Assembly (NCBI GenBank): GCA_964036195.1
Contig: OZ038451.1
Span: 29,777,927 to 29,841,926, forward strand
Direction of reading: 5' to 3'
Length of the DNA stretch: 64,000 nt
Source of the DNA: Sphaerolaimus hirsutus
Lineage: Eukaryota; Nematoda; Chromadorea; Monhysterida; Sphaerolaimidae
Shown piece by piece: positions 973 to 64,000 of this stretch (the stretch's first letter is position 1; every line of letters begins with the position of its first letter). Position numbers and translations under genes: made by a program. The notes beneath the pieces were generated by a model. The model was not told where the DNA came from, ran no database searches, and saw only the letters and a list, made by a program, of their open reading frames with translations.

Positions 973-3302
973 GTGAGTTTTTTTTTGGGGGGGGGGTTAT
1001 TTGAGGATGGGGTGTTTTTTGTTTGTGGTGCTATTTGGATGACGTTTTTACGTGCAACATTTTTGAACAATTCTACCGTATTTCCTCGAAATTTATTTTA
1101 CCGTATTTTTTTCAGTATGAGAATTTTGAGGGGGGGGTTATTATTTCACCAGAAATTTTTTGAAATCCTCCCACTAAATTGTCGGTTGAAACGTACGCAG
1201 ACGTGAAAAATGCAACAAAAATCGTCATTTATAAGACTATATAGTCTTGTATAAGTGTGTAGACGGTATAAACCCTGTATAAGTGTGTAGACGGTATAAA
1301 CCCTGTATAAGTGTGTAGACGGAATAAACCCTGTTCTAACGTAACACAGACATTGTCTCAACGTGTGTTCTGCATTGCACGGTGACAAATCGCAGCTTAT
1401 GTCATTTACGTTCTCTATACACTAAATTCGGGGGGGGGGGGTTATAAGTTCATAGTGTCCATTTTGAGAGGGGGTATTTCGAGGAAATACGGTATATTTG
1501 TTCGCAACTGCTGCGTTGTGTGAAAAGCTAAAATCATGCCAATTTTTCTGGTTCTTTCCTAGGTAAACGCCCTCGCAATTTCAAACGTCAACCTCTCACA
1601 TCAAAACACAGTTAAAAACACAGTTCCCCAAAAACACAGGTGGTTTTATTCGGCTCGCTGGCAGTGAAAGACCTGAGCGCCATGACGTTGTCCTGCGGCA
1701 GCTGCGGCGCCGTGTGCGCCAAGGAACGGGTCACTGAGGCCCTGGGAGCTATGCGCTATATCGACCAGGTGTCAATTTCTCTAGAGGATAAGTGATGAGG
1801 AAAGTGGTCGGTGGTGTGTAAAGTTGTGAGGGGTTGGTTAAGTGACAAGTGAAGTTGAAAGTGGCGTAAAGTAGTGGGTGTAAGTACGTGACACTTGTAA
1901 GCAGGTTTAGGGCGATATGGCTTTTCGATATCGATAATCGATATATATTTTTTCGACATAAGATTTTCAATGGGAAAGTGGTCGATGTCCGATAACACAT
2001 AAAAAAAATATCTGACAGACGATATTTTTCAAAATTTTCGTTGTCGATATTCGATGTGAAAATTAGTCGATATTTGACATTCGACACACAAACCCCAAAC
2101 ATACATAAAGGTTTACTTGTCAATCGACTTTTCACTTTTGACTTTACTTTACACATCCCACTTTCCTTGTAACTTGTCCACTTGAGAAATTGGCTCAAGA
2201 TTTGTGACCAACAAACTGAAGTTGATGTGGCAAACAAAGTGGGCCAGAGTGAGAAGTTTGTGGCTGATAACTTTCTGATAACGTTTTCTAAGACGCTGCC
2301 TGATGTTAGTTTGTACGGGCACGAGATTGTATATTTGTGTGTTGAGTTTTAGCATATAAACTTTAAAGTGAAAATCATTTGGCATTTTCATAATGAAAAA
2401 TGAATGACATCGTAAATTTTTTTCAAACAATTATTTTTTTAATTTTTTGTATTTCTCAGATTTTGACAAATATCAGAAAATTTCTATAAAAAAATTATTT
2501 AAACATGTTGTTCTAGTTTTTTATTATTACAATTGATAAATTATGTTTCCATGCGGTGCGCTGTAGGTAAATTACTGTAAACTGTATGCATTTCCAAACC
2601 TCTCCCAGGTAAACATCTACATCGTTCGTTTGATCCAGTCTTGCATCAAACACACGCCGCCGACAGATTACGAAAATCAGTTCATTTTTCACGAGAGAGT
2701 GCTGCCAGCGCTGAGAATTTGCTACCCCACAAATCACCCAAGTTTGGCTTACCATTTGATGGCACTGGCACAATTTGCTCTGCACTTTTCCGTCGATGAT
2801 CAGAAGTCGGTTTTTTGTGTTTTTTATTTCTTGGGGAGCTAGGGGGAGGGGCTAATGTTTGTGGACTTGTTGTGGATCAAGTGATAAATTGTATTGGTAA
2901 AAATTTGAAACTTTTGCCCTGAAACTTACTGTGAATTTGAGAGTTTACTCGAAATTCACACTCGACAAAAGTCAAAACATATCCCAAAGTGTTCAATCAA
3001 CCGAAATAAAATAAGTCACTCACCCGAGAATCGAACCCACCCCACACCACGTGCGGCGATCCAAGTCACTAACCACCGCGCTACCGGGCAGGTTCTCGCG
3101 GGCGCTCCTGTACGCCAGCGAGGCGGTGGGCATGTTCGAATTTGCGCTCGGTCCCGAGCACAGTCTCAGCGCGCAAGCGAATGGACACAGGGCTGCTTTG
3201 TGGCAGATGCAACAAGTTGCGGGGCAGATTTGTGGTGATGTCTCTGTGGGTGAAGAGACAGAGGTGGGTGAATTTTTTTTGAAGTTTTTTTGTGTGCCTT
3301 GA
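796..3302 (+). CDS. SMYD-A: SMYD-family lysine methyltransferase, C-terminal part
   Basis: Four exons (796-972, 1640-1768, 2609-2805, 3092-3302) join in frame to 238 codons including the stop. They encode the end of the SET domain (FYTYIDLL, the catalytic-Tyr strand), the post-SET cysteine cluster (CNCERC, then CVQC and CGSC..VC) and the TPR-like helical C-terminal domain (RICYPTNHPSL ... ALGPEHSL). That order is the SMYD signature; family members methylate histone or other protein lysines. The N-terminal SET and MYND parts lie before the window. SMYD-B begins 3.3 kb downstream in the same orientation, so the two look like a tandem duplication. The last exon is read through to a TGA at 3300-3302. 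A GTGGGT at 3264 could instead be a donor to an exon I did not find. Confidence 0.8.
1074..1494. repeat. TACCGTATT-terminated, G-rich element inside SMYD-A intron 1
   Basis: Begins TACCGTATTTCCTCGAAA and ends TTTCGAGGAAATACGGTA. The body carries long G runs and three tandem copies of a roughly 28-bp unit containing GTGTGTAGACGG (about 1250-1335). Same family as 10341, 22414, 27098, 50069, 52377 and 53739. Confidence 0.7.
1640..1768 (+). CDS. SMYD-A exon: post-SET finger
   Basis: Flanked by CACAG and GTGTCA, phase 0 on both sides, 43 codons. Contains LSCGSCGAVCAKE, which completes the cysteine pairs after the SET domain, and ends MRYID. It corresponds to the start of SMYD-B exon 13136-13320. 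Confidence 0.75.
1912..2092. repeat. GATATC-rich MITE remnant in SMYD-A intron 2
   Basis: Dense CGATATC/TCGATAT words with interior phrases 'TTTTCAAAATTTTCG' shared with the complete hAT-like MITEs at 5597-6351 and 25665-26435. Terminal TAGGGTTC motifs and a target duplication are not recognisable, so this is a decayed copy. It sits between words such as 'AAGTGACAAGTGAAG' (about 1840) and 'TTTCACTTTTGACTTTAC' (about 2130), possibly arms of an older element. Confidence 0.5.
2609..2805 (+). CDS. SMYD-A exon: start of TPR-like C-terminal domain
   Basis: Preceded by TCTCCCAG; starts phase 0 and ends phase 2 at CAGAA before GTCGGT. Encodes VNIYIVRLIQ ... RICYPTNHPSLAYHLMALA. The RICYP..HPSL block is the helical repeat motif of SMYD C-terminal domains. 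SMYD-B splits the same stretch over two exons (13849-13929 and 14326-14528). Confidence 0.8.
3016..3091 (-). repeat. tRNA-derived SINE head abutting a splice acceptor
   Basis: Read on the minus strand it has a tRNA layout: TGCCCGG, then TAGCGCGGTGGTTAGTG (A-box-like), and 70 nt on GGGTTCGATTCTC (B-box-like). No seven-pair acceptor stem forms, so it is not a working tRNA gene. Its first base lies at 3090, so the A of the AG acceptor used by the exon at 3092 comes from the SINE end. Confidence 0.6.
3092..3302 (+). CDS. SMYD-A terminal exon
   Basis: Begins phase 2 (completing Lys) and reads FSRALLYASEAVGMFEFALG, then PEHSL, matching the last helical pair of SMYD C-terminal domains. The phase-2 boundary matches SMYD-B's last junction (14528/16673). 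It continues to TGA at 3300-3302. Residues after GEETE are low in similarity and may be intron sequence if the GTGGGT at 3264 is a donor. Confidence 0.7.
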
Positions 3303-3310
3303 AAAATATT

Positions 3311-3482
3311 GCCAGCACACACACTAGTTTACCAACACGAAATGCTCGACCATTTTGGTAAACTGTTTTGACAAAACAGTACGAAACACCGTACAAATCT
3401 GTACTGTGTTTCGTACTGTTTTGTCAAAACAGTTCACCAAAATGGTCGAGCATTTCGTGTTGGTAAACTAGTGTGTGTGCGG
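3311..3482. repeat. Near-perfect palindrome (CACACTAGTTTACC family)
   Basis: Two arms of about 75 bp, from 'CACTAGTTTACCAACACG' to its inverse 'CGTGTTGGTAAACTAGTG', around a short centre at about 3391-3406. Only a few arm mismatches. Probably a foldback MITE; half of another copy opens the window. Confidence 0.7.
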
Positions 3483-3501
3483 CCATTGTTGCTGCAGACA
3501 A

Positions 3502-4410
3502 TAGTTTACCAATGAAATTTTGAAGTAGTATAAATCAGCTTTTAACGTATTTGAGTTTAGTGCGATGAGTTATTTTTACTCTCCGACAACCGTAGTTGAT
3601 GAGTACCTAATTCCAGTAAACTCAAATGCAATTCAAAGTTTATTTATGAGTTTACCAAATTGTTGTTTACTGACAGTAGTAGGGTTGGCCGATGTTTTTA
3701 TTAAACGTTTTTTTTTAAACGTTTTTTTAAATAAAAAAACATGACGTCCGAAATGTTAAAAAAAACAAAAAACATGACGTCCGAAATGTTAAAAAAAAAA
3801 AAAACATCGGCCAAAATTTTGAGTACTAAGCACTAGGTATTTAGCAAAATTTTTGCGCGCAAGCGCGCAATTTCACACACAAATTGACATTGGTGGTTGT
3901 TTTCATTGGTTTTGTTGCATTTTTAGTATCAAAACATCCATTTCTATGTGCTACCATGGGTGAATAAGCCGACATATGTTGCTGTAATATATAATATTGA
4001 GGTAATGTGCTTCCATGTACCTCCACAGTGTGTAACTTCACTCCCAAAGTAACAACCTCCTTTTATAACCTTGTTTGATCACCATTCCGTGCCAAACTTT
4101 ACCTGAAGTCACGAACATTCGACTATAAGGCGATATACGAACGATATGTCGACGAAAAATGGATATTTTTGACACAAATCACCACTTATAATGCTATCCC
4201 ATGGCTCCACAGCCATTATATGGTCATATTTAACATCACAGAGTATTGCCAGTGTCTGATATACCTATATATGTTGACACTAGGTCATATCTGGGAGATT
4301 TTAAAAAAAACGTTTTAAAAAAAAAACAACGTTTTTTTTATAAAAAAACATCGAGTTAAAAAAAACGTTTTTTTTCCAACCCTAGACAGTAGGTGAACTA
4401 GTGTGCGCGG
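3502..4410. repeat. Older inverted-repeat element interrupted by a hAT-like MITE
   Basis: Flanks such as 'ACAATAGTTTACCAATG' (3503) and 'GTGAACTAGTGTGCGCGG' (4393) are loose inverted ends of the CACACTAGT group. Between them, 3681-4384 is a clean later insertion. Related words occur at 51740-51850. Confidence 0.45.
3681..4384. mobile_element. hAT-like MITE, copy 1 (TAGGGTTGG ... CCAACCCTA)
   Basis: Short terminal repeats TAGGGTTGG / CCAACCCTA are bounded by the same 8 bases, GACAGTAG, at 3673-3680 and 4385-4392. An 8-bp duplication with such termini is the hAT hallmark. Subterminal poly-A/T and AACGTTTTTTT blocks surround a unique core (about 3835-4290), which is nearly identical to copy 2 at 14691-15373. 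It has no transposase. Confidence 0.85.
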
Positions 4411-5335
4411 CCCCATTCTATATTTTACTCACCGGGTGTTTTACATGGAATGTTACCATATTTGTATGAATAACTTCCCTTGATAAATTGTGCAATAAAT
4501 ACACCGACAGTCAAAACAATGTGAGGTTTTAATGGAAAATTTAAAAAAATATTCAGTTAGGATACGGTGCATTTCTATGTAACTTGTTCGGTTAGTAGAT
4601 TTATAACAGCGTTTTGTGTGCAGTGACATGAATTTTATATAACGTATTTAAAACGAGTTTGAAGTGCATTATGATTTCTTCTCTTCAATTTTACAGTTAA
4701 TGTTTACTTTTTGGAATATAATATCAGTGCATCGGCAGAATTTTTTTATTAACCCGGCAAAATGCGATATGTCTTTTAAATACAATTTTTTCTCAATAAT
4801 ATATCGTTGAAAATTGATCCCTTGTAAATACAATGTTGCAAACTGAACACATTATCCAATGCGCAGTTGTAAAATGGGTGTACAGCTGTTCGCGCGCGTT
4901 CCATATTTGCAAATATTCACTGGCGCATCCAAAAATCGATTTCTACGTCGGCTTGCAGTGCTCCGTGTGCGTAAACTAACAACAACACTTGGAAACAGTT
5001 GGTTTCACTGTACGTTTGAGTGTTTGCACGTTTGCCATTGCCAATGCAGTGTGTCCGTGTGTTTTGAAGTGTTTGTTAGTGTTGGGGGTTTTCTTAATGA
5101 ATTGAGTGTAAAAAGGGCTTACTAGTTGATGATCGCTCACTGAAACTTGTCGTCAACTAAACCGTCAACTAAAATGTGTTCTGACCTAGTTTTAGTTCAC
5201 GGGAATGCATCGTTTCTTTTGGTCTCCAATGGTTAACGGAGACTGAAGTTACACATCCCGAAGACTGCGACACGCTTAAATCTGACGTTTTAGTTGACCG
5301 CCGGTTTCTGTTGACAGACTGGCAACGGGGATGGT
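4411..5335. other. Intergenic stretch upstream of SMYD-B
   Basis: No gene is supported. A CpG-containing patch at 4860-5060 (GCGCGCG, TACGTCGG) contrasts with its AT-rich surroundings and could be a promoter or 5' leader of SMYD-B. The 88-codon frame there has no recognisable domain. Confidence 0.25.
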
Positions 5336-5402
5336 CCGGCCGTAAAGTAAACCCGGTCGTAAAGTAGAGGGTGTTACGTTAGGCCGGGCATCATTACGGC
5401 AG

Positions 5403-5584
5403 AGTTGTTTGAAGTACTGAACTTTTTTCAAAGTAAACGTAAACGTAAAGTATTTTATTTTTAGTCACACCTGAATACAGAAAACGTAAAGTAAAATTTT
5501 TCTACTTTTACGCTGTGTAATCGTATTTACGCAGCACTCGAGTATACGTATTTATCGAGTAAACGTAAATAGGTTTGTACAACT
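5403..5584. repeat. AGTTGTT-ended element related to receptor intron 50609-51180
   Basis: Begins AGTTGTTTGAAGTACT and ends TTGTACAACT. The interior shares 'AAACGTAAAGTATTTTA'-type and 'CTCGAGTA..CGTATTTA' words with the element that forms the receptor intron at 50609-51180. No clear target duplication here. Confidence 0.45.
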
Positions 5585-5596
5585 ATGCCTTACGGC

Positions 5597-6351
5597 TAGG
5601 GTTCAAACGATATGACTTTTCGATATCAATATTCGATATTCAATATTTTTTTCTGAAACTCGATATTCGATATCGATACGATATGGAACCTCGATATCGA
5701 TATTCGATATTCGATATTGAAAAATGTTCGATATTCGATATTCGATATTTTCGATATTGCGATATGCTTTTGGTATAGCAAGGCATATTTCAAGTGGCAT
5801 ATTGTATTTTCATGTGGTTGCACACATGTTTTATCATCTCTTTACTGAAATTTGAATGGTGCAAGTGATTTTAACAAGCTTTACATCACTCAATGGTAGA
5901 AAATAGAAGAAAAACATGATGAAGCAAAGTGTATCAGACAAATAACAATTGGTAGATATTACAGTTCATCCTAACCTAATTGCTTAAGGGCATGTTGCAA
6001 AAAAAAGTATATCAGCGTTTTCTGGCTTCAAATTTAGCACTCCAACAACAATGACATTATAAATACTGTACTTTTACTCATCAAATACAATACTATAAGC
6101 ACATCAGATCAACCATAAACATCTCAAAATGAAAATGAAAAGTAAATTTGGGGACACAATACAGGTTCGATATATCGAAAAAATGGTCGATATTCGATAT
6201 CGATATTCGATATGTTTTCAAAATTTTCGATATCGATATTCGATATTCGATATTTTTTCAAAATTTTCGATATCGATATTCGATATTCGATATAAAAAAA
6301 TGGTCGATATCCGATATTCGATATTCGATACGATATATCGTTTGAACCCTA
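5597..6351. mobile_element. hAT-like MITE with GATATC-type body, copy 1
   Basis: Ends TAGGGTTCAAACGATAT / TCGTTTGAACCCTA; CTTACGGC is duplicated exactly at 5589-5596 and 6352-6359. Both subterminal zones are cryptic repeats of CGATATC and CGATATT flanking a unique core (about 5775-6165). The copy at 25665-26435 is the same element in reverse orientation. Confidence 0.85.
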
Positions 6352-6569
6352 CTTACGGCCGGATTTACTTTACGGCCGTGTTTACTTTACGGCCGAGTAC
6401 TCGCCACTGGCAACTAGAATGCACAGTATCAAATTTATCTGTGTAATGGTCAACGGCCAATGTTTAACTGTGTAAAACTTCAAAAACGGTAGCGTTGGTA
6501 AAAAATTAGTCAGGGACGATTTCTGGAATGCACCACGATAAGATACAAATAATTTTGTAAAACATAAAA

Positions 6570-6774
6570 ATGGTTTCTTATCCACTTTTACAGGAGCAAA
6601 AAATTGAAAGGACTTGCCAAAAAGCTCCATCTAATGAAACAAAGAACCAGAAAACAATAGAAACGAAACCCCCCTCGGATCCGCTGAGACCGCAAAAATT
6701 AGAGCCGAAAACAGAAACTAGAAATAAGATTGAAGAGACAACTGAAACAATACCAGCTGAATGCACCCAACCAG
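6570..6774 (+). CDS. SMYD-B exon 1
   Basis: ATG in good context (A at -3, G at +4) after an in-frame TAA at 6558. Encodes a Lys/Thr/Glu/Pro-rich stretch without a known domain, ending ECTQP plus one base (phase 1). If TTTTACAG before 6594 is a real acceptor, the gene has further 5' exons. Confidence 0.6.
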
Positions 6775-9700
6775 GTGGCAGTCCCGCACCTTGTAAAGTG
6801 TAAGGTAAAGTGTAAAATATTATACAAATTTGTCAATAATCACGCAAAATGTCAAAATTTCAGTAATAAATTTTGTTATTGTTTTTTTTTTTAATTCACA
6901 TTCTGCATGACTGACATTTCACACTTCACATTACACTTAACAGGGTGCGGGACTGTCCCCAGGGGATGATTTTGACATGCCAAATCTTATTGTTGGCAAC
7001 ATTCCAGAAGATCCATTTCTATCAGTGGACACTGATCAGGGTGCGAAAGAACAATCAAAAGAACATTCCACAGTGGAAGAGGCACCTAAATCTCCCAGAA
7101 CTTATGCCGATGCAGTAAAGTGCCACGTGGATGAAAGTGATGAGAAAAGTGGCACTTCTAAGTCGCCAGAAAGTGCACAACTTAATGGTGAAATAGCTTC
7201 TGAGAATACCAGTGCTGATAAAGAAAACGTTTTTGAGGTCAATGGAGAAAGGGAGAAGGATAAAGATAATCTGAGTTTTGTTGAAGTGACTGCAGATTCT
7301 GAGAAGCCAGAGAAAGGGCAAAATGAAAGTGCACCTGTCCCAGAAATTTCTGCATCCAAAAACACAGAAGTTGAAAACAATTTACCACTGAAAGGTTTTG
7401 AAGTTAAACCAGAAATTGACAACAATGTGCCACCAAAAGTCATCGAAATTCAGCCAGACAATGACAACAATTTGCCATCAAAAGTCATTGAAATTCAGCC
7501 AGAAAATGACAACAATGTGCCATCCAAAGTCATAGAAATTCAGCCAGAAGTTGACAACAATGCACCATCAAAAGTCATAAAAATTCAGCCAGAAAATGAC
7601 AACAATGTGCCATCCAAAGTCATAGAAATTCAGCCAGAAGTTGACAACAATGCACCATCAAAAGTCATACAAATTCAGCCAGAAAGTGACAACAATGCAC
7701 CATCAAAAGTCATTGAAATTCAGCCAGAAAATGACAACAATGTGCCATCCAAAGTCATAGAAATTCAGCCAGAAGTTGGCAACAATGCGCCATCAAAAGT
7801 CATAGAAATTCAGCCAGCAATTGACACCAGTGCACCTCAAAATACAGCTGATACCACAGAAAAAGAAAATGCCACAGATATGACCAATCAAATGCAATTA
7901 TGCCCAATCGATTGCAATGACCAAGAATTGGTATTTTATCCATTTGCATATTCACTGTTTGAAAGCTGCATGACTGATTATTGCTGGTACTGCCTCAAAG
8001 AGAAAACTGACACAATGAAAAAGTGCACTGGATGTATGGTGGGTTTTTTGTTGTTGTTTAATTTGAGATACATAAATACAGGGTGCGGCAATTTAGACGG
8101 ACCCCATGAAGTTTTGAATCACTTGTCACTGGGTAGTCGGATTGACGTCAAATTTTAGGTCAACATTAACAACTAAATAGGAAAGGATCCCTGAAAACAT
8201 GGCTGCGATAGCTCTACTCGTTCTTAAGTTATTCATGGAAACCTATAATTGTCACTTTTCCACCACCTAGCTTTACGTCCAATTACGCAAGCACCCGCCA
8301 CTTTCCTTATGGGCATAGAAAGGAAAGGAAATCAGAAAAACCCCAGAAAAAACAATCCGATCCCGGTCCCGAGAAGTCAATCCCGTTTGAACGATATCAC
8401 AAGGTGGTGGAAAAGTGACAATTACTCGTTCGCGTGAATAACTTGTGAACGAGTAGAGCTTTCGCAGCCATATTTTCAGGGCTCCTTTCCTATTTAGTTG
8501 TTTATGTTGACCTAAAATTTGACGTTAATCCGACTACCCAGTGACAAGTTATTCAAAACTTTATGGGGTCCGTGTAAATTGCCGCACTCGTATTTGGGGG
8601 AGTGCGGGTAGGTAAAGCATTTTTTGATATGGATTTTTTTAGAAGTCTGTATGAAACAGTTTTTTTAAACGTTGGTATCTTCAATCCTGGTTCACTAGGT
8701 AAATACCATATATCTTGATTAATTGCCGTGGGTAACTCTTTTTGTCAACATTTGGGAAGGGGAATTATTCAAGGGAAGGTGTCATGTTTTGTCAGAGTTT
8801 TCAATGACATTTTTATCAATTGATTATATGAGCTGACCGAATATACGATAAATCGTGCCAATTTCGGCAAGTCAAAATACACATGACATCAGCATGTATA
8901 TGGGTACAAATACACATATTTTCATGTTTCTGCTGCCATTGTGGATATGGAACCTTCTGTTCCAACTGTAATGGGGGAATCTCAGGGTGGATTGCTTTTT
9001 TCCGCTTGGCTTGCAGAGGGGAACCATTCAAGGGAATGTAATTTGAGTATTGTAGCTTGTCTCATATGTGACCTCAACCATATTTGAGAGTTTTTTGTAA
9101 TAAAATTGTTTTAGTATAAAACGTTGTTTAAATACCGTCTTCAGAAAAAACTGTTTTGTCAAACAACGTTTTTTAAAGCAAAGTTGTTTTTAACACAGTT
9201 TTGTAAAAACTTTTTCCACCCCCGATATCTACTGTAATACCGAATACCCACTTGCCAAATACCCAATACCTACCTAACAAATACCCAATACCCACGTGCC
9301 AAATACCCAATACCCACATGCCAAATACCCAATACCCAGGTGGCTCGCTTCTGCGACCGGCAGTGCCACGAGCGCGCCTGGGTCGACCACAGGGCCGAGT
9401 GCCCCGCCCTCGCAAAATGTGACAGACACACGCTTGAGGATGATGTGAGGTTGTGGGCCAGGGCCATTGTCAGGTACAAGGCTATACTCACTGGTGGGTA
9501 GGGCTGGGTGTGCAGATGGGAATTTACGGGATTGTGACATAGTTTTTGAGGAGTTTTTTTGGTTGTGCTTTGGTGACTTGAATGTCGGAAACTTTAATTG
9601 ACCATTTGGTGCTGCGCGCACTTTTCGGTACACCATCGAAATTTCGGGAACTCAAAAATTCCTTTCCAACACATTTGAGTGTACCAGAATGTCAACTACT

Positions 9701-12700
9701 CGATCAATAATCACTCCTGTTGAACTAAAATGTGTTTGGAAGTGGTGTGCCATTTTGCATGGCAGATTACAAATTCGTGTGACATTTTGCACTTGGCCAA
9801 AGTGACGTTTGGCTGGGGCTGGCCCGTGTGCTAAATTTCGTTGCAAAGACAAAAATAAAAAAAACTCACATTTTACAATAAAAGTAAAACTGTGACATTT
9901 TAACCAGGCCGCGACAAATGCGACAACTTTTACCGCGAGCGCGTCAGCGAGCGCCAACTGATGCAGCTGGTGCCAATCCCAGACCCTGTAAAAGCCCTGT
10001 AAAATGTCAAATGTTATGCAAAGTGTCAAAAGTCATGGAAAATGCCCTGCAAAATGGCAACTCGGTTGCAATTTTGCAGGGCATTTTCCATGACTTCTGA
10101 CACTTTGCATGACATTTGACATTTTACAGGGCTTTTTACAGGGTCTGGGAGTGTCCTCTGGTGTCCCACTCGGCCGACGTGAAAGGCGACGAGAAGAAAA
10201 TGGCCAATTTCGAGGCCAGGTACGAGTACATGTGCTTCACCTTCAACCACAAGGACCTGCTCGACAAGGAGTTGTGTTTTAAGGTGAACAGTTTTTTTCT
10301 TTCGGATTATAGTTTCGGGTGGGGGGGACAGCAAACTTGCTACCCTATTTCCTCGAAATACCCCCCCCCCTCAAAATGGGCACTATGAATTTGTGGTCCG
10401 GGAAATGCATAACAGATGTTCAAAACACTCACTGTGTTACGTTAGAACATCGTTTATACCATCTACATCCTTATATAAGGCTGTAAAAACTTATAAATGG
10501 TGGTGATTGTTGCATTTTTCACGTTTTTCTCTCAAAATTTTCACTCTGAAAAAATAAACTCCCCGGGGGGTAATTCGAGGAAATACGGTATATGTCGGAC
10601 CCCCCCCCCCCCGCTAAGCTCAATTCTAGTGTGGATGGTCAAGTTTTGTCCTTGGTTGACAACTCTAAAGTGCGAGAATTTATGATATGTACTGACAAAT
10701 AAATATGAAGAAAATGAAATGAAGAGTCCGGTTCCAAAAGCTTTTAAAGCGCCCAATCAATAAAAATCGAGGTAAGTATTGACATCCACATCTAGTTTTG
10801 CAGATTTTTTAAAGAATTTTAAGAAAATTAATATTTTAGTTTTTTTGAATTGAAAATTGAAAAAAATTTTAATTGAAATTGACAAAAGGTATTCTGTATA
10901 ATTATATTTTTAACTATGCGTTGATCCGCTCTATTTTTAATTTAATTTAATTTAATTTAACTATATGAACCCTTTCATTGTCCACATTCATACCCCCCGT
11001 AATCACTTCTCAAAAAATTCAACAAAATTCCCCAGATTTACTGCCGCCTGATGGTGAATCGAATCGTGATGAAGTCGAACGACGGGGTGAAATCGATCGG
11101 CCAGGCGATTTACCTGGACCAGTCCGCCTACGACCACAGCTGCAGGCCCAATGCGGTCATGATTTCGGACGGTTTCCGCAAGAGACTCCGCCCACTTCAC
11201 GATGGGGTGCGTTGTGTTTTAAAGCTGTTTTTGTCAACTGCTTGCCGTCTGTATTCGAAGCGCGCTGATAGTAACACCTACGCGTATTGTTTACACATAA
11301 TGTGCCTACACACACTAGTTTTCACCGTGACTTCGTGTGAAAACTGAATTTTTTTTCAAATGCAAATTAATGAACACGGTTGAATGATTTAAAAAAATTT
11401 AAACTGGAATTTAAATTAATGAAAGTTAAAATTTGAAAATTTTATAACTAAAACACATATAGCATACAATAAGAGTAGGAATAATTTGATAATAATAATA
11501 ATAATAATAATTTGATGAAAAATGTATAAAATAGTGGAATTTGTACGTTTGCAGGTGGAGTTATCGGACACGCAGAATACATTCATCGCTTACATAGATC
11601 TCTGTCAGGTAAGCCATATCTATGTTTACTTGAATTGTTGCACTTTGAATAATTTTATGCTTGTGCGATGTTTGATATATCGCAGAGGGTATTTTGTCAT
11701 AAATATCTCGATAAGCGAAAAACGATATCTTAAATTTCAAAATCAAACTGTGTTCGATATGGTAGCACGAAAATGGGTTATTTTTATGGAGATTTGTCTC
11801 AATTTTTAGATACAGTTTATATTTAGATATTTCTCGGTGAATTTTCATCATAGCTATCCTCATAGCATCCGCATATTTAACTAGGGTCTCAAAAAATCAC
11901 ACACCGGAAATCGAAATACCAAATCCTTCTTCCCAGGGGTCTCCAAGATTTTGGCCCTCGCGGGGGCTGGATAGATGTCAAATCGCTCCTCCGGAGAGAT
12001 AGATAGCTGAGAATTTTTCTGGGGGGGCTGGCGGGGGCACAATATATAGGCTTTTTCAAGGTTAAGAAGGCATAAAGGGGAAAAATCGCTAATAATCAGT
12101 CAAAAGTAGCCAAAAGTAGGTTTCAAATAGGTATATAACCATGTATATAGCCGGAAAGCACGATTTTGAAGGTGGAAAACGTATAAAAAGGTGCGAAAAT
12201 TAGTGATTTTGAGCGAAAATTGGGGCAAAATTTCTCAAAAACCACGTCAGATAGATTTATAGCTGAGCGATTTGGGGGGGGGTCTTTGGGGGTTGTAGGC
12301 AAAAATTTTGCCTCGGGATAGATAGATAGCTGAGCGGCCTCCGGGATAGATAGATAGCTGGCCGATTGGGGGGGGGGGGGCAGCCCCCCCCCAGCCCCCC
12401 TAGGAGACCCCTGCTTTTCCCTCCCCAAACCGGAACCGTCAACCATCAACCCTCAACCCCCCCCCCCCCCCCCCCAGCCGCTAGACAGTCGCCGCGCGGT
12501 GCTGCGTTCGGACTGGCACTTCGAGTGCATGTGCTCCCGGTGCACGGACGCCCGCGACCACCTGCTCACGAGCATCCGGTGCGCCGACGCCACCTGCGCC
12601 AGGCCGCTGCTCGTGTCTGGGTCTGAAGCCACGCAGGGTGCCTTCGGGGGGGGGGTGGGGGGTTTTTTTTTTTGAGGGGGGGGGGGGTGTTCGAGGAAGG

Positions 12701-15700
12701 CTTGGTTTGGCATTGAAAAAGTTGATGGGAGATTATTTTTTTTTTGAAAAATGTCAGAAAATATCGAATAATTTTTATTTTTGCCAGGATTGATATAAAA
12801 ATGTAAAAAGCAGAGAAAATCAAAATATGTTGTTTTCTTCCGTTTTTCCCAGAGATATTCTGTTATATCTTCGTTGAACAATTTTCTGATATGGTTTTTG
12901 GTTTTTGGTTGTTTTGCAGCATGCATACTGCACACTTTGCATTAAAATCCCTAATTTTTTAAGTCAAAATATTATTACGCGCTGTGTGCTATTGCTATGC
13001 GATCACTTGTTTTCTGCGGCCTTATTCTTTTCAAAACACCAAAAAATTTGTCATCAAATTAACCCGTATAAAGAAAACAATGAAAAAAGACGGAACATTT
13101 CACCACCGGAAAAACGTCAACCCCCCCCCCCCCAGGCCCCAGCGCTGACTCGTTCCGCTGCTCGCACTGCGGCCGGGTGACATCGGCTTGGCAAGTTGCC
13201 AGAGCGCTGAAGGCCATGACGCACATCAAGCAGCTGGTGGAGAGTGGCGGCGCCGCCCGCGACGACCCCCTCGCCGCCGCTGAGCGACTGCTGAAGAACT
13301 TCGCACCCATGCTCCCGCTGGTTGGGGGGGGGGGGTCTTGTCTGGCTTTTTCAACCGTTTGAAAAAACGTTGTTAAAAAATGCATACGTTTTCTATTGTG
13401 GCAAAATAGGTTTATTATAACGTTTAAAAATGCAAACGTTTATCACTTTCCGTTGTTCAGTGCGCGAAAATCACAACAAGTTCGCTTTTCCAAACGCTGC
13501 CCAAGTGATGTCAAAAGTTATCCCTGTCTGAGTTCGATTGCGCAATCGTGCTTTTGTGATGACAATTCCTCGTTACTGATGGGCCATCTGTAAATTTTCA
13601 CCTGATTTTTCTTTAAATACTTCCATCATCCCACATTTAAAAAAATAAAATTGATAAAGTTATAGCTCAGTCGGCCCAACTTGTAACTGGTAGCATGTAC
13701 GGTTACAGCATTCATACGCACAGCGAAAGCTCCCGGGTTCGAGTCCCGGCCAGGGCGAAAACCTTTGTGCGTTTTCTTTAATCCAATAAAAATGACCAGG
13801 GGAGAAGTTTGAAAGTTCGAAAACCTTACTTTGTGTGTTTTAACGCAGGAGAACATTTACTACTTCCGTTTGCTCATGGCGACGGTCGACCTGATCGAAG
13901 AGGAAATTGAATCGCTGAAAAATGCAAAGGTTGGTGTGTTTTACGTCAACTCAGGTGCGATTTACGAGACACAGGCGTCAACTGGTAACTATGTCAATCC
14001 TGACTTTAGTTGACATGTCACAGTTAAATTTAAATGTAAAGATGAACAATGTTAAGTTAGTATTTTTCTATAATCGCGAGATGGTTCTGGGATAGGCCAA
14101 CAAAGAACTGAATTGACGTGGAAACAAGTTGACCTTGTCAACTAGTATACTTACTACTTAGTGCCATTAGCCCGCCAACAATTGTCCTTTCGGGTGTGAC
14201 CCCTCATTCACCCTACAAGACTGAACCCTCCACCTAAAAATGTTTTTTCAACTGATTTAAAAAAGCTGATTTTAACGTTTGTTAAATCAAGGCCTTTTGA
14301 ACACCCCCTCCCCTCAACCCCCCAGACGGCGGCACCCCCGTCGCTGTACCACCGGCTGTGCACGCATCTGCGCGACGGGCTGTCGTGCGTGCGGCTGTGC
14401 TACCCCTGGGGGCACCCCGCGCACGCGGACCACCTGCTGCGACTGGCTCGGGTGCTGCGGGCGGCGCACACGACCAGGGGGGCTCCGGGCGCTTGGGCAC
14501 TCGCACCGCAGGCGCTCGCCTATGCCAGGTGGGGGGGGGGTGCAGGGCAGTGCACTAGTATGCACAAATGCCCATTACGCACATTTTCCCGTTTTTTCAC
14601 TTGACACTTTTTCAAGTGATTTTCAGATGTGAGTGGAGTGAAAAAAGTTGCGCAATGACATGAGTGAACTTTTTTCACTTCACTCATATCTAGGGTTGGC
14701 CGATGTTTTTTTTTTAACGTTTTTTTTAAAAAAACAACGTTTTTTTTATAAAAAAAACCTGACGTCCGAAATGTTTTTAAAAAAAAAAAAACATCGGCCG
14801 AAATTTTTAGTACTAAGCACTAGGTATTCTGCAAAAGTTTTGCGCGCAAGCGCGCAATTTCACACACAAATTGACATTGGTGGTTGTTTTCATTGGTTTT
14901 GTTGCATTTTTAGTATCAAAACATCCATTTCTATGTGCTACCATGGGTGAATAAGCCGACATATGTTGCTGTAATATATAATATTGAGGTAATGTGCTTC
15001 CATGTACCTCCACAGTGTGTAACTTCACTCCCAAAGTAACAACCTCCTTTTATAACCTTGTTTGATCACCATTCCGTGCCAAACTTTACCTGAAGTCACG
15101 AACATTCGACTATAAGGCGATATACGAATGATATGTTGACGAAAAATGGATATTTTTGACACAAATCACCACTTATAATGCTATCCCATGGCTCCACAGC
15201 CATTATATGGTCATATTTAACATCACATAGTATTGCCAGTGTCTGATATACCTATATATGTTGACACTAGGTCATATCTGGGAGCTTTTAAAAAAAAACG
15301 TTTTTTTTAAAAAAAAACGTTTTTTTTAAAAAAAAAACATCGAGTTAAAAAAAACGTTTTTTTTCCAACCCTACTCATATCTGAAAATCACTCTAAAAAT
15401 TGTCAAGTGAAAAAAACGGTGAAAAATGGCTATTTTTGACTGTTTTTTCACTTGACACTTTTTCAAGTGATTTTGAGATATGAGTGAAGTGAAAAAAGTT
15501 CACGAATGTCATTGTGCAACTTTTTTCACTTCACTCATATCTGAAAATCACTTGAAGAAGTGTCAAGTGAAAAAACGGGAAAATGTGCGTAATGGGCATT
15601 TGTGCGTAATAGGCCTGCCCCGGGGTGCAGTCCTGCCAGTTGACGGCTGATTGGCGGTCAACTGTTGCCACTCGCTGGCTTTGCATTTACAATGTCTTAT

Positions 15701-17704: not shown

Positions 17705-17870
17705 CTGGGGGCAGTCCCAGATCCTGTAAAATGTCAAATGTCATGCAAAGTGTCAAACGTTATGTAAAATGGCAACTACGTTGCCATTTTGCAGGGCATT
17801 TTACATGACGTTTGACAGATTATATGACATTTGACATTTTACCGGGCATTTTACAGGGTCTGGGGCTGGC
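17705..17870. mobile_element. CAGTCCC-family palindrome outside a gene
   Basis: CTGGGGGCAGTCCCAGATCC at the left, GGGTCTGGGGCTGGC at the right. Arms with AATGTCAAATGTCATGCAAA and its inverse meet near 17775. Same architecture and sequence as the SMYD-B intron at 9970-10151, here with no exons around it. Confidence 0.7.
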
Positions 17871-18022
17871 GGCTGTGGCGCTTCTTGAAGGTTTGGTGCC
17901 ACGGCGCCGGCGTCAGGCGCTTTTGCGCTGAGCGCAAAGGAAATATGGAGCGCCAACCTCCAAAATTGCCATGGCGTTGGTCGCTTTGGCGCTGGCGCCA
18001 TGGCACTTTTACTTCACTAATA
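17871..18022. repeat. Truncated GCGCCATGG-type MITE
   Basis: GCGCCACGG/GCGCCATGG words and a right end CACTTTTACTTCACTA resemble the complete elements at 28288 and 53929. The left end is missing and abuts the palindrome at 17705-17870. Confidence 0.5.
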
Positions 18023-18388: not shown

Positions 18389-18608
18389 CTGGGGCCAGTT
18401 CCGCAAGTGGAAAGGTTAAGAGTTAAAAGTTAAGAGTTGAGTAAAATGACAAGTTATGAGTAAAGTTAAGAGTTAAGAATTGAGTAAAATGACAAATGAT
18501 TTTACTCAACTCTTAACTTTTAACTTTACTCTGAACTTATCGGTATATCATTTTACTCGACTCTTAACTCTTTACTCTTAACTTTTCCACTTGCGGAACC
18601 GGCACCAG
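18389..18608. mobile_element. Inverted-repeat element, divergent CAGTCCC-family member
   Basis: Left CTGGGGCCAGTTCCGCAAG, right CTTGCGGAACCGGCACCAG. The interior repeats GTTAAGAGTTGAGTAAAATG and its inverse. Termini share the CTGGGGxCAGTxCC pattern. No gene context. Confidence 0.55.
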
Positions 18609-20095
18609 ATGTTACTTAAACGTGTTCTATTAGCCTGATCGTGTTTACATTCGAGTGTGAGGGCACTCGATCCAACCGTGGTATAATGGGCCTCCACACG
18701 CTAGTTGACATCGCATTTTTCGCATGTAAAATGTCAACTCAGAGTCAACTGAAATTTTTCTCAGTTGACTCTAGTTGACAACGTACACACTAGTGATAAT
18801 GTCAACTAGTAAATTTGGGCAGTACAGATATTTGTGTCACTGGCCGAGTCAACTAAAGCATACGCGTATGTTTTTTTGCGTACGCGTATGTTTTTTTGGC
18901 ATACGCGAACGCAGAAAAACGTACGCGTATGTTTTTTTGCGTACTTATACAAATGTTTGCGTACGCGTACACAATTTATGCCTTTTGAATTGCCAAAAGT
19001 GTAAAAGTGAAAAAGTTAATTATGAATGTGATATTATTAGTGTTTTTTATGTCAAATGTGATATGTTGTGATATTTATGATTGTTATTTACTGTTGTTTT
19101 TACGTTTTTGAATGAAATTTTCCAAATTAGTTTTTTTATTACATATTTATTGAAGACACATACTAAAGTGAAAAATCACACAATCATCGATCTGGATCAA
19201 GTAAACGAACTTTTTTACGAAATTTTACATTTTGAAAAATTGAAATCAACGAAATTAAGTAACAGAAATTGCTGAAAACTTTAAAAAGCAACAATTTTAG
19301 AATTGGAAAAAACAAAGTAAAGCGTGTACTACTCGGGTTTATTGACAAGTTTTGAATATTTTGACAAGTTTTGAATTGTTTAAAGAAAAACAAACAACTA
19401 AGAAAAAAACAGATTTAGAAAAGAGAAAGAAAGATTCTTATCAAGTTGTAAAATTTTGAGAGAAATTGCAAACAGAATCTGTTGAACAAAATTTTTTCTG
19501 CTTTTTACTCAAAAAAATTTAGGTAGTACATTTTAAAAATTAAATTCTGAAAATTTATAAATGTTGTTGTTGTGGTTTTGTAAATCTTTACATATCAAAA
19601 AATTTGTAAGAAAAAAAAAGAAGAGGAGATTCATTTTAAACTTGAACAATTTGGAGATTGAAAATAGCAAACATGAAAACTTTAATTGTTGCATTTTTGC
19701 ATATTTTCAAAAAACATTTACAGCTTTTGACACAACTTTTTGAAATTTTTTTTTTGAAAAATCAAGGTAAAAAATTTCAAAATTTAGTTATTCTTTAAAA
19801 GTTGCACTTTTGTGTCTAACAAAGAATTCATATCTGCTATCTATTTACTATTAACAACAAAACAAAAAGTTTCCAAATTATTATAAAAACAAGCACATTC
19901 AAATCTTTCCAAAAATTCAAAAATACTCAAAAATCATCGCAAAATACCAAACAAAACCACTAATTCCAGAAAACATTCAAGCCATTTCACTTCAGACACC
20001 GCCCACTGCTGCCACTCTCCTGAAAGTATCAATAGAGTTAAGAATGGATTAGTCTATAAAATGTCAACTTATATATTGTTTACTTCACTACCATG

Positions 20096-48300: not shown

Positions 48301-51300
48301 CTATATCTTTTGATTCCACTTTTGATGCATGCCGCCACAGTCCCCCATATAATTTCTGCACTGCAGATGTAAAATCTTAACCCTAGCTGCAAAATGGACA
48401 CTGCACCAGAAGTGGGGAAACTACTCTTATTCAGAGGTGTAAATGCATGCATGTGTGAGCAGAAGCGGTATTCGTTTTGTGACAAGTTGGCATATGTGAC
48501 TGATTTTTTGTGTGTCTTTCTGGAGATGTGTCCAGTCATCCCCGTGTCAAGTTGTCTCTGGTGTCAAAATGGCCGTGTCAAAGTGTCCTGTGTCAAGCTT
48601 TCTTGTGGCAATTCATACACCAACCCCATTTGGTTATTTTTCACATATATGTACATTGAGAGAAGGGGCTGCAAATTTGATACTTTATGTCAACATTTGG
48701 AACTTAATGCTAGGCGCGAGAGAGCCAAATTGGACACGCAGGATGAACCTGGAATTGGATCGGAAGCTTAAAATGCGATGTACTCAAAATCGCATTTTGT
48801 GGACTTGTCGACTTCTAGAAGTAGACGCCTCAATTACATACCTATAGCAAGCTTTTCATCCTGTGCAGTCCCATACGAGATTAACTCGGAACCTTCCCAA
48901 GTCAAGCAGGTTTTTCTTGCATCATCCCAGGACAGATATTCATGCTTGAACATCAAGCAAGCATGACCATCTGACCACTGAGAGGGATACCATTTATCAT
49001 ACTCTTTGTCTGTGAGTGGATTGGCACATGTATTGTACAACAACATGGACTATGTGATTTGAATTATGAATGGTCAGAGTTTTTTCAACGTTTTTTTTTC
49101 AACAGAAAATGTCGCAAAAATGCAAGAATTGAAATCAACCCAATTTTTAAACATTACATACCTAGCTAGATAAATACACACTATAAATAACACCACCATA
49201 ATAGCACAGGCATGATAACCCAGGGGAAAACATTGCACCACATCATGACATGACACTGTTTCTAGTGCCATCCAAAGCAGTGTTGCCGGGTGCCAAATTT
49301 GCACCAGCAAAAATAGCGTCAAGCACCAAGAGCGCCGCGCGTCAATTCTGATATTTATATTTTTTCCAGGTTTTTTGAGAGATATGTAAATATAGTTTTT
49401 CTTGAGAGATTTTCTGCGATTATATTTTATTATATATTCTAAAAATTGACGATATTTTCAATGCTAGCCATGGCGCCATTCCACCACTGTGCAACAAATA
49501 GGCTGATTGAGGTGGCTCCATTAAAGCCATGATAAAGATTCTGTGTACCTAATTGAACCGAACTGCTGCTTAACAAATATTCACCACTCATCACAATTTC
49601 TTTTTATCAAACAAACGAGAACACACTGAATGTCCGGTCGGGGCCGTTCTCACATCTATCGCCAGTGTAACCCTCACTGCATTCGCAACTAGCATCGCCT
49701 GCGTTAGCCTTCGCAGCGGCGCACCTGCCTCCGTTCTCGCAGATTATGGTGCAAACTACGTAAGCCGTTAAATTGCAATGTGCGTCGTGCAAATGATGTG
49801 AAGCTGGATTGTAGTCGGTCCATTGAATCAAAAGAAGTGCACAATCTTCATTGCCATCTGGATCGTTTGGCTGGGAGCAGTCCCAAGCCCTGTTAAGAGT
49901 AAAGTAAAGTGTTTAATGTAAAGTCAAATGAAAAGTAAAGTGTCAATTGTGTATACAAATATTATTTTTCATATCCAAATCGTTTTTTGTATCCAAATCT
50001 TACAAAATGGATACAAAATCATAAGATTTGGATGCAAAAAATTAAGATTTGGATACAGAATTGACACTTACCGTATTTGCTCAAATTACCCCCCAGGGGT
50101 TTATTTTTTCAGAGTGAGAATTTTGAGAGAAAAACGTGAAAAATGCAACTATAACCACCATTTATAAGTTTTTACAGCCTTATATAAGGATGTAGATGAT
50201 ATAAACTATGTTCTAACGTAACACAGTAAGTACGTGTTTTGAACGCCTGTTATGCATTTTCCGCATTTCATAGTGCCCATTTTGAGGGGGGGTATTTCGA
50301 GGAAATACGGTAACTTGCCATTTGACTTTACAGTTGACACTTTAGTTATCATTTGACACTTGACTTCGCATTTGACTTTACATTTGACACTTTCTTTACA
50401 CTTTACAGGGCTTGGGATTGCCACTTGCGTTGGATCCCACAATGGGTCTTCCGTAGCAATCGTCCCATCTACACCGAGCCAGCGCCATGTGCCTTCACTG
50501 GTGCCCTTGTCAGTGGCGCCGACCCAAAAGAGCTTCCAACAATCATTGCGGCATGGTATGAGACTGTGCACATGACTGAACACTTTCGCAGCGTCATCCC
50601 GATTGTACCTTAGTTGTTAAAACGTATTTACATTTACTCGATAATTACGGATACTCGAGTACTGCGTAAATACGTTTACGTTTCCTCCCGGGAAAAATAC
50701 CGGTACGCACTTACTCGCGTACTTGTTGAAAGTACACAAGTACCGAAAACGTATTTAAGCGGGGGATAGAAATTAGAAAGTGACATTTTGACAGACAGAA
50801 AGTGACAAAATGGGACATTTTCCTAAGAAATAGTTATCGGGAGAAAAAACACACATTTGATGTATTTTTGTGTAAAAATTGACAAAATTTCAGATTTTTA
50901 CGTTTTCTGTGAGAAAAATACTCACATTAACATTTTATATGAGAAAAATACTCATTTTAACGTTTTCTGTGAGAAAAATAGTCACTTTAACATTTTATAT
51001 GAAACAAATACTCATTTTTACGTTTACTCAGAAAAAAAAAATTTTACTCACGTTTTATGCAGTGTAAAAGTCTTTAAAAAATACTTTACGTTTTCTGTAC
51101 TCAGGGTTGAATAAAAATAAAATACTTTACGTTTACGTTTACTTTGAAACAGTTGAGTACTTTTAACAACTCGATTGTACAGTGTGAGCAGCGAGCCGCC
51201 GGGCCGACTGGTGCAAATGCGCGTCGCTTCGAGAATCCCCTGCTCGTGTACATCATGTATAAAGAAATTCAAGCAGATTGTCCCTCCTTGTCCGGGTCCG

Positions 51301-54300
51301 GTCCATCCCATTTCATACAAGGGGGCAGTCCCAGACCCTGTAAAGAGCCCTGCAAAATGTCAAATGTCATGCAAATTGTCTAAAGTCGTGGAAAATGCCC
51401 TGCGAAATGGCAACCGGGTTGCCATTTCGCAGGGCTTTTTGCATGACTTTTGACACTTTGCATGACATTTGACATTTTGCACGGCTCTTTACAGGGTTTG
51501 GGAGTGGCACCAGGTGTTGCTCATTACATTAGCCATTTGTCCTGGGTCATAAAGTTCGGAATTTTGTTCCATGAAAATAGGATGTAAGGCTATGTAGAAT
51601 GTAGCATGTAAGGCTCCCAAAAGCCATATAATTTGTGTTCCATGAAAATCTTTTTATGAACACAGAAGTTGTCAATCATGGATCAGTATGTTTCATATCA
51701 TGACATCAATCATTTGAGCTATTTGATTGTCTGTCAGATTGGTACTGCACACACTAGTTTACTGCCAGATTTTGGTAAACTCAAGAATCGGCTTTGAACG
51801 TATTTGAGTTTCCCGAATTAGGTGTCTGTCTACGTCAGTTGGGAAACTGAGGGCCGCTGGAATCTCAAACTTTTCGGGTTTGGGTATCGGGTATCGGTTT
51901 CAAAAAATTTCGGGTATCTGTTCCAATAAATGTGTGGGTATCGGGTTCGAGTTGGGCCGGGTCAGGTCGGGTTCCCAACCTAACTCGCAGTACTATCTTT
52001 TTAGTTAAACGAACACACACGTATAGTCGACAGACATATCACTCTACAAAATCGGAGAGTTATATTTTGTTCCTGTACGGAGCGAACGAGAAAGGAAAAT
52101 AGTATTAAAAACATAGAAAGATAGTAAAAAGGAAAACAAAAATGTGCTGTTCTTTACGCACTTGTTTACTCCAATTTTTGTGCTGATTGGTGCTGCAATT
52201 TTTTATTTATTTACGTTTACCTATGTCATCTAATTCATGTTTAGAAAAGTTACATGCTGTCGAGTCATTTTGAAGAGAACTTGTAGGGTTCAAAATTTTT
52301 GATTCAGAAAACGTTCCCGCATTGTATTTATTCAGATGCTGTCTACCCAGATGACGCTTGATGGCATCATGCCAAATACCGTATTACCTCGAATTATCCC
52401 CCCTTGAATTAACCCCCCCCCCCTCGAATAAACCCCCCTCAAAATGGGCAGGGGAAATAATAAACCCCCCCTCGAAATACCCCCCTCCGGAATGATGCAC
52501 ATCATGTATGCAATGTACATGGTCGGGCTGAAAAGTCCCCGGGCAGTGCTCGCCATTCGCGCTAGGGGTAAGCTACGGTTATAAAATTTTAACACGTTAA
52601 TATATCAGGTATTTTGAGTTTTCACCCAAAATTTCACCCCTCTAGCTCCACCCACTGGAACTGTGGGGGTTACAATTTCAGTCATTTTGTACTGATGTAC
52701 AAATGGTGCTCTAGCTCAACGCTGCTTTAAGTTGTGATCATGAAACTTTGGCTAGTGTAAGCCACCAGTGTTGGCAATGTGCTGATAGTATTCAACCCTT
52801 TCATCATAATATGCAGATCAGGGTGATGTGCAAGAAACGTGTGAACTGTGATGAATGTATATGTATGAACATCTGAGATCATGTATTGCAGTGATTTTAA
52901 TGTTGTTTTGAAATGTGCAGTAAATTATTATGTCAATAAAATTTTATTTGTGTTTCATTACTAATCTGTAGTGGACACATTACCTGTGTTCAACAGCAGT
53001 GTGCATGAAAAACGCCTCCTGTATTAACCTGTATTGACCAACCATAGAGGCAGAATGATGAATTTGGTAGTGAGAGTAGTGACAGTAATGGCAATATGGA
53101 CTAGGCTTATGATATCATAGCTAATGTTGGTAAGTGCTGGCACATTGCCAACACTGGTGGCTTACACTAGCCAAAGTTTCATGATCACAACTTAAAGCAG
53201 CGTTGAGCTAGAGCACCATTTGTACATCAGTACAAAATGACCGAAATTGTAACCCCCACAGTTCCGCAGTGGGTGGAGCTAGAGGGGTGAAATTTTGGGT
53301 GAAAACTCAAAATACCTGATATATTAACGTGTTAAAATTTTATAACCGTAGCTTACCCCTGGCGCGAATGGCGAGCACTGCCCGGGGACTTTTCAGCCCG
53401 ACCATGTACATGATGTATTTATTACTACTTATTTGCATCACAGCTACACTTATACGCTCATTTGTGTACAGATGTACATCTATAGCCCCAATATAACCTA
53501 TATTCTCACATTTATTACCGTTTTTGTGTAAGAAATAGCGTATTCTTTACTACGAATTCCCCGAAATTTTCTGGCGAAATAATAAAACCCCCCCTCGAAT
53601 AAACCCCCCCCCCCTCGAATTAACCCCTCCTCAAATTTTGCTGGCGAAATAATAAACCCCCATGGGGGTATTTCCAGGTAATACGGTAACTCAATTACAC
53701 TTTGATTGAGTGTTTGAATTGTGCGGGCACAATTGAATGCCGTATTTCATCGCAATAAACTCCCCCCCCCTCGAAATACCCCCACCCCTCGAAATACCCC
53801 CCGCGAAATACCCCCCTCAAAATGTACACAATGAACTTATTACCCCCCCACCTCGAAATACCCCCCCCCCAAATTTAGTGTACCTATAGAGAACGTAAAT
53901 GACAAAGGCTGCGGTTTGTCATCCGGGCTAGTGATGGAAAGGCGCCATGGCGCTGGCGCCTGGCGCTAGGGCCAAAGCAAAAAGCGCCATGGCGCTTTTG
54001 GCGCTTGGCGCTATTATTGCGTGGCGCCAGGAACAAAACGCCCGGCGCTGGCGCTTGGCGCTAGCGCCAAAGCAAAAAGCGCCATGACGTTTTTGGCGCT
54101 TGGCGCCATATTGCTCTGGCGCCATTGGCGCTTGGCGCTGGGGTTCGAAAAAGCGCAATGGCGGTTTTGGCGCTTGGCGCCAAAGTCCTGGCGCTTTCTC
54201 CATCACTAATCCCGGCAATGCAGAACACACGTTCAAAACTCTGACTCTGTTATGTTAGAACAGTTTTTTTTTACATCTACACACTTATACAAGTCTTTAG

Positions 54301-62759: not shown

Positions 62760-63001
62760 TATAATAAATTATTCCACGTGTCCCATTTGAGCATGTGGTG
62801 CTTGCCCAGTTGCGCTTGTGAAATGCAACTGGCACACTCTTCAGCTTGTGCAATGCGCAGCACATGTCGAAATGCTTCATTCAGATCGGCTTGTGTGATA
62901 GGTTTTGACAAATATTCGCTTTCGCGTTTTGCAGCTTTGTGCATAGAGCGATTGAGCCAATATGTTTTGACACGAAGCAAATAAACGACAGTACACAACA
63001 A
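62600..63001 (-). pseudogene. Region between RNase H and integrase, BEL element 2
   Basis: Helical sequence (NEAFRHVLRIAQAEECASCI) matching the N-terminal integrase extension of BEL elements, then NPSLFYYLPKTG. The frame changes near 62700-62750 into the integrase frame. Confidence 0.6.
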
Positions 63002-63103
63002 TTTTGACAGTGTTGAAAATCGTCGAATATCTATTTCGAACGGATTTGATGGGATGTGACGTTGCCGACTTTCAACAAACGGATTTTGAGGAGTGACATT
63101 TTG

Positions 63104-63880: not shown

Positions 63881-64000
63881 AGATGTCGTTTCAAATCGTC
63901 CAGTAAGTCATCCGCCTCTGGGTCTTCGATAAGTTCGTCCCAGGTTGTGATATTGCACCTTTGAATTATTTGTGACACGCGAAATTTTAACCGAAATAAC

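Follow-up and report, generated by a model that had tools for sequence, protein, structure and literature searches.

The window analyzed here is a 64,000-nucleotide stretch of the genome of the nematode Sphaerolaimus hirsutus (contig OZ038451.1, positions 29,777,927 to 29,841,926), and it contains a gene, SMYD-B, whose exons match the solved proteins SMYD3, SMYD1 and SMYD2 (best E 2.3e-13). Two introns of this gene consist of inverted-repeat elements, which an initial annotation took for complete copies of one mobile, intron-making family. Both introns do begin with GTG(G/C)CA(G/A)TCCC, have inverted arms and belong to one element family, and removing them leaves the reading frame open (phase 1 for 6775-6962 and phase 0 at 9970). 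Our analysis indicates that they are very probably copies of an introner, here a short non-autonomous DNA transposon with terminal inverted repeats (TIRs) that inserts at CWG (W being A or T) with a duplication of three bases and would be removed by the spliceosome. Three more SMYD-B introns, from about 8036 to 11035, appear by eye to be of the ordinary GT-AG type.

The second intron is essentially one palindrome, as had been noted, with arms of 72 nt at 96% identity (9990-10061/10065-10136), and those of the first extend over 48 nt at 83% (6771-6818/6916-6963). Folded as RNA with 20-nt flanks, copy 2 is predicted at -162.8 kcal/mol (z -24.1) and copy 1 at -76.7 kcal/mol (z -7.1). The proposal that each intron ends with the inverse of its own beginning fails at the outermost bases, which differ (GTGG versus GGGA at 6775/6959, and GTGC versus AGGA at 9970/10157). 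Nor does the final CAG of intron 6775-6962 belong to the TIR, being instead the second copy of a target duplication whose first copy precedes the donor (Table 1). Of the two splice sites that the TIRs were proposed to contain, the element thus supplies one: the donor GT lies at the very end of the element, and the acceptor AG is normally provided by the target duplication. Copy 1 reads CAG/GTGGCAGTCCC...GGGACTGTCCC CAG/ (slashes mark boundaries) in phase 1 and would bring an in-frame stop codon into the message if left unspliced; the fit of intron 6775-6962 to the introner rule is well supported. For copy 2 the proposed start and frame hold, and the proposed end at 10151 is less secure, the duplication being CTG and exact excision ending with TG at 10160. 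Its removal is in frame in two ways, either as 9970-10151, with an AG inside the TIR, or as an exact GT-TG excision of 9970-10160. The first would keep nine extra bases, or three extra codons, in the message, and a comparison of this region with SMYD3, for which the extra residues were included, favors neither acceptor. Because the 3′ duplication is CTG and both ends are in frame, the acceptor at 10151 is a candidate only.

The same design recurs in the window and in the genome, which is 348 Mb in 762 contigs, the large ones of chromosome size. The 49 distinct copies collected comprise 31 picked from a similarity-ranked list, for which 40 of 2269 first-look candidates were scored, 12 found in random stretches and six in the window, one of these six belonging to a related subfamily. 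Left out were loci L014 and L034, which are without a TIR pair, the duplicates L009, L030, L043, L044, L045 and L046, and, from 48 pattern hits paired by hand, TIR ends that stood alone or were strongly diverged. The random sample, ten 20-kb places on ten large contigs (200 kb), holds 12 paired elements, three of which (L051 and two in L065) lie within a Pfam domain with exact joining. These counts would correspond to about 20,900 elements (Poisson range 10,800-36,500) and about 5,200 introns (1,100-15,300) genome-wide, totals that give orders of magnitude because few elements were sampled and they cluster, one place holding four of the 12.

The consensus is about 189 bp long and has the layout CWG-GTGCCAATCCCAGACCC...GGGTCTGGGAGTGCCCC-CWG. 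Among 37 copies of 170-195 bp, mean identity to the consensus is 94.1% (range 68-97%). The inner TIR is the same at both ends and the outer bases are asymmetric, with GTGCC at the donor end versus GGGGCAGTCCC at the other, C-rich end. The start is GTGCC in 34 of 49 copies and GTGGC in four, and the non-donor end, read inward, is GGGGC in 29. Orientation was assigned from these end bases; 43 copies have GT at the left end and three have it at the right (L051, L004 and L024). Since one TIR end is GTGCC and the other GGGGC, one orientation begins CWG/GTGCC, as a donor, and ends ...CCCC CAG/. CWG flanks the element on both sides in 41 of the 49 copies, and 9 of 196 C and G positions in the duplications depart from this pattern. 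The base before the duplication is preferentially C (29/49), the next one out A (25) and the base after it G (21). Together with an empty homologous site in a transposase gene, the duplications document insertion at new sites. CWG-anchored inverted-repeat pairs of any family number 56 in 264 kb versus none in one mononucleotide shuffle, and the 16-base end of the copy at 9970 has four window matches at three or fewer mismatches, against 0.38 expected.

To follow the behavior of these elements in coding sequence, the flanks of each copy were joined minus one CWG and the element, and the longest frame free of stops across the junction was determined for both directions. The junction peptides, 49 in the donor sense and 48 in the opposite sense (one of less than 25 residues was omitted), were compared with Pfam at E 0.001. 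The donor-sense set matched 11 families with one member each, assigned to ten copies: RhoGAP, iGluR ligand-binding, CNOT1_TTP_bind, Guanylate_cyc, ACCA_BT (acetyl-CoA carboxylase), CAP, Oxidored-like, MIF, COMM, and Lectin_C with EGF, these two belonging by eye to one copy. The COMM match is just at the cut-off. Three matches appeared in the opposite set, namely SLC6 (L051), Srx (L024) and a cathepsin-like domain (L022). The last stops one residue short of the junction and the Srx domain begins past it; the L051 and L024 elements carry GT at both ends. Neither L015 nor the N-terminal part of the transposase of family B (see below) gave a Pfam match. With SLC6 added to the ten donor-sense copies, a domain spans the junction in 11 of 49 copies, with 11 different domains.

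All 11 domain-spanned copies read CWG/GT...CAG in the sense of the gene (CAA replaces CWG in one). The ten with asymmetric ends are all in donor orientation (p 0.001) and all have a 3′ CAG, versus 15 of the 39 others (p 4e-4; 15 of 37 minus L051 and L024); in four of the ten, CTG precedes the donor and CAG stands at the end. This rule of orientation and CAG in the domain-verified coding copies is directly observed, as are the family itself, its ends, its duplication and the protein continuity. Exact removal yields an SLC6 alignment with the solved chain 9lnm that is ungapped over LCYQ^NGGGAF (caret, junction) and scores 105.2 bits, falling to 92.9 bits when the first 18 element bases are kept. 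RhoGAP (2ee4) and iGluR (5ikb) chains likewise align without a gap at the junction. An inner donor, CCT/GTAAAA, was considered and rejected: it is in frame (+18), but its U1 pairing is only -1.6 kcal/mol and it lowers the SLC6 score. The outer donor pairs better, at -6.8 kcal/mol for CAG/GTGCCA and -3.8 for CTG/GTGCCA. Whole introns of this family recur at unrelated gene positions, with exon borders deduced from protein continuity, and the many copies, the target duplications and the uniform GT...CAG reading of the domain-spanned sites support the earlier proposal of a mobile intron-making element.

Table 1. Probable introner copies in the window and their target duplications (positions in the 64,000-nucleotide stretch; slashes mark element boundaries)
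Feature	Position	Strand	Details
Introner copy 1	6775..6959	+	185 bp; with 3′ CAG forms intron 6775-6962; joined flanks open, phase 1
TIRs of copy 1	6775..6959	+	GTGGCAGTCCCGCACC / GGGACAGTCCCGCACC, read inward
5′ target duplication CAG of copy 1	6772..6774	+	kept in exon
3′ target duplication CAG of copy 1	6960..6962	+	acceptor
Introner copy 2	9970..10157	+	188-bp palindrome; SMYD-B exon, between QLMQL and VSHSADV
5′ target duplication CTG of copy 2	9967..9969	+	
3′ target duplication CTG of copy 2	10158..10160	+	without AG
Third introner-derived intron	49871..50424	-	551-bp element 49874-50424 plus CAG 49871-49873; 5′ duplication CAA
Further introner copy	51322..51510	-	3′ flank CTT
Further introner copy	17708..17872	-	donor end decayed (CCGCC)
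Related-subfamily copy	18392..18605	-	same end design; CTG/GTGCCGGTTCCGC...GGAACTGGCCC/CAG

The proposed mechanism would begin with insertion at CWG by a NuwaI-like transposase of the PHIS (PIF/Harbinger-ISL2EU-Spy) superfamily, with three bases duplicated. The altered TIR end would then serve as the donor (CWG/GTGCC), and the element's pyrimidine (C) run followed by the CAG of the duplicated target would serve as the acceptor. The ordinary spliceosome would remove the element and one CWG, which would keep the length of the message and restore the target.

Miniature inverted-repeat transposable elements (MITEs) are common inside introns, and the copies might be ordinary MITEs that landed in pre-existing introns and came to fill them, in which case the splice sites would be old. 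In agreement with this, many copies are not in verified exons, with 38 of 49 lacking a Pfam domain over the junction. Against it, each of the 11 domain-spanned copies makes up the entire intron between donor and acceptor, with boundaries that coincide with the CWG duplication and joined flanks that form an unbroken domain, and one such site is empty in a transposase homologue. We regard this explanation as improbable, and we say the same of the idea that these are unspliced exonic MITEs that have damaged their host genes, or else oddities of assembly or haplotype. Copies with CTG on both sides in likely exons (9970, L004 and L019) do lack an AG at the exact boundary. However, damage should be indifferent to orientation and to the 3′ W, yet ten of ten copies combine donor orientation with CAG, and frame and domain continue past the element in SLC6, iGluR and RhoGAP. 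Spreading through RNA by reverse splicing would also make whole introns recur at new sites, as is seen in the coding copies, but this is the least probable explanation of all. Introners of that kind would have neither TIRs nor a target duplication, and here both TIRs and a 3-bp CWG duplication are present, in copies of both orientations and also in random sequence that has no gene-sense context. The TIRs, the CWG duplication, the two orientations and the copies in random sequence together argue for DNA transposition.

Some observations nevertheless weigh against the introner explanation, beginning with the 38 copies that no domain spans and the three CTG-flanked copies just mentioned. The similarity ranking supplied 31 of the 49 copies, which are not a random draw. 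Judged by frame length only, the sense frame is longer in 28 of 49 copies, showing little orientation bias, and the orientation claim thus rests on the domain-verified copies. Locus L036, which gave no Pfam match, has by eye the appearance of an SLC22-type transporter gene read opposite to the donor direction and, if real, would be a coding insertion in the wrong orientation. No autonomous partner with introner TIRs was found in PHIS families A and B, to which the search was confined. Finally, we infer the splicing of these elements from protein continuity over the excised site.

The copies flanked by CTG on both sides may use an inner AG or a TG acceptor, or may be damaging. For L019 an alignment to phospholipid phosphatase 2 (E 1.7e-5) runs across the exact join, where there is no AG, and an AG within its TIR would shift the frame; an in-frame TTTTACAG acceptor was ruled out, as the site reads ACAC rather than ACAG. 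More generally, the two duplications carry a different W in 10 of 41 copies, of which seven read CTG...CAG and three CAG...CTG, an excess over point mutation (p 4e-6 if 4% are expected to differ, 0.003 at 9%). Four of the seven CTG...CAG copies are in domain-verified sites, and the three CAG...CTG copies are not explained by splicing. Contributions could come from selection that favors an acceptor, from insertion leaving a mismatch, and from choosing 31 copies by similarity. A more speculative idea, to which we give a minor chance, is that the transposition step itself helps to make the acceptor, with W carried by the element or left mismatched at insertion. If so, an exonic CTG insertion could be a GT...CAG intron at once, without awaiting mutation, and the family would gain introns at CAG and CTG sites alike. 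With one TIR end already made into a donor, the chemistry of a transposon would then have been tuned for splicing.

The genome has at least 163 DDE_Tnp_4 matches, and the two families that were read, A and B, both have other end sequences. Family A (L067, L071 and L076) begins AATGGCCCCGCGCACACTAG at the one end reached, and the end reached in family B is CATTGGCCCCACACAAGCTGG; neither is the introner TIR, and another locus considered as a candidate also belongs to family A. Family A shows many near-equal scores among the matches listed, and two of its copies are 98.9% identical over 5.5 kb, which suggests recent spread. At 3305-3490 of the window lies a near-perfect palindrome with 91-nt arms at 93%; its ends look by eye like the left end of family A (AATGGCC..GCACACTAGTTTAC), and it is probably a MITE of this PHIS transposon. 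The transposase gene of family B holds a 192-bp introner, CTG/GTGGCAATCC...TTGCCCC CAG/, in both copies read (L068/L072 on C10; L075 on C13), and the family A homologue, 39% identical, is one open frame at this position. The presence of the introner in both copies indicates that it landed in the gene of another transposon and was then copied with it, a case in which one transposon multiplies the intron of another.

The genes encountered include those of MYND/SET, secretin-type seven-transmembrane with EGF, iGluR, SLC6 and C-type lectin types, a set that points to an animal genome. The third introner-derived intron (Table 1), which the initial annotation did not include, interrupts a C-type lectin domain, with a Pfam Lectin_C match of 5.3e-07 across the junction. 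SMYD-B coding sequence at 7320-7904 holds a 45-bp (15-residue) tandem repeat in about 9-10 copies. The SMYD-B peptide has no homologue at E 0.001 in the protein collection, and tblastn of the window for empty sites in SMYD paralogues returned the SMYD-B exons, with the rest at E 0.62 or worse. Other inverted-repeat elements lie at 8083-8587 (186-nt arms, 91%; within a SMYD-B intron) and at 23979-25158 (308-nt arms, 93%), and ends similar to those of such elements also occur in L063 at 19015-19571. Another repeat, recognized by eye at about 50069-50312 and about 10330-10600, has ends like TACCGTATTT...AAATACGGTA with C or G runs, and one copy of it sits nested within the 551-bp introner. Regions 35312-43700 and 58373-63907 hold, on both strands, frames that by eye are retroelement-like (zinc knuckles, integrase-like, envelope-like) and that are presumably of BEL/Pao type. 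Rfam at gathering thresholds gave no match in the window.

Where new spliceosomal introns come from has long been asked, and there are few reports of introners from animals. Families of this kind may already be included in Huff 2016 or in a PNAS article of 2025 that deals with introners and horizontal transfer. An estimated ten thousand or more copies, together with a readable rule of orientation and CAG, would make intron gain countable, datable and testable in an animal. The survey by Gozashti et al. 2022 (PMC9860276) found introners in just two groups of animals, one of which is the copepods. It also records introners that bring one splice site with them and recruit the other and, in Aureococcus, a family after whose removal extra codons stay behind. 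With the TIR introners of that survey and of Amoebophrya (PMC7789003), the window family has in common similar introns at many sites, an intron that is the whole element, TIRs, a short duplication, and splice sites drawn from element and target duplication. It is unlike those of the survey in its animal host, its CWG duplication, its one end turned into GT and its CAG supplied by the duplication. MITEs are likewise short, non-coding elements of high copy number with TIRs and target duplications, but the introner differs from them in ends shaped as splice sites and in behaving as a whole intron at coding sites.

This is, then, an introner, a known kind of element, whose apparent source is a transposon group that we found in no introner paper of the literature searched. 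The term PIF does not occur in the main text of the survey (PMC9860276), and the word "introns" does not occur in the paper on NuwaI (PMC4482050). A literature search from which most subscription papers were out of reach found no paper joining NuwaI with introns among the five listed of 5,693 loose matches, and only one, a fungal study (PMC8476143), with both introner and Harbinger. According to Han et al. 2015 (PMC4482050), NuwaI is a PHIS group described from 16 animal genomes, with a 5′-CWG-3′ target duplication, TIRs that usually start with GGG, and, between matching TIRs, a DDE transposase and a Myb/SANT protein. Measured against that description, the introner shares the animal host and the CWG duplication (41/49, with the middle base differing in 10 of the 41), and its GGGGC at the non-donor end (29/49) recalls the GGG start; it departs from NuwaI in the donor end, where GTGCC (34/49) replaces GGG, and in that no coding capacity was seen in its copies. 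The CWG duplication and the GGG end thus fit the NuwaI group, of which the family is a candidate member. If it does belong there, intron-making transposons would come to include a PIF/Harbinger-like group.

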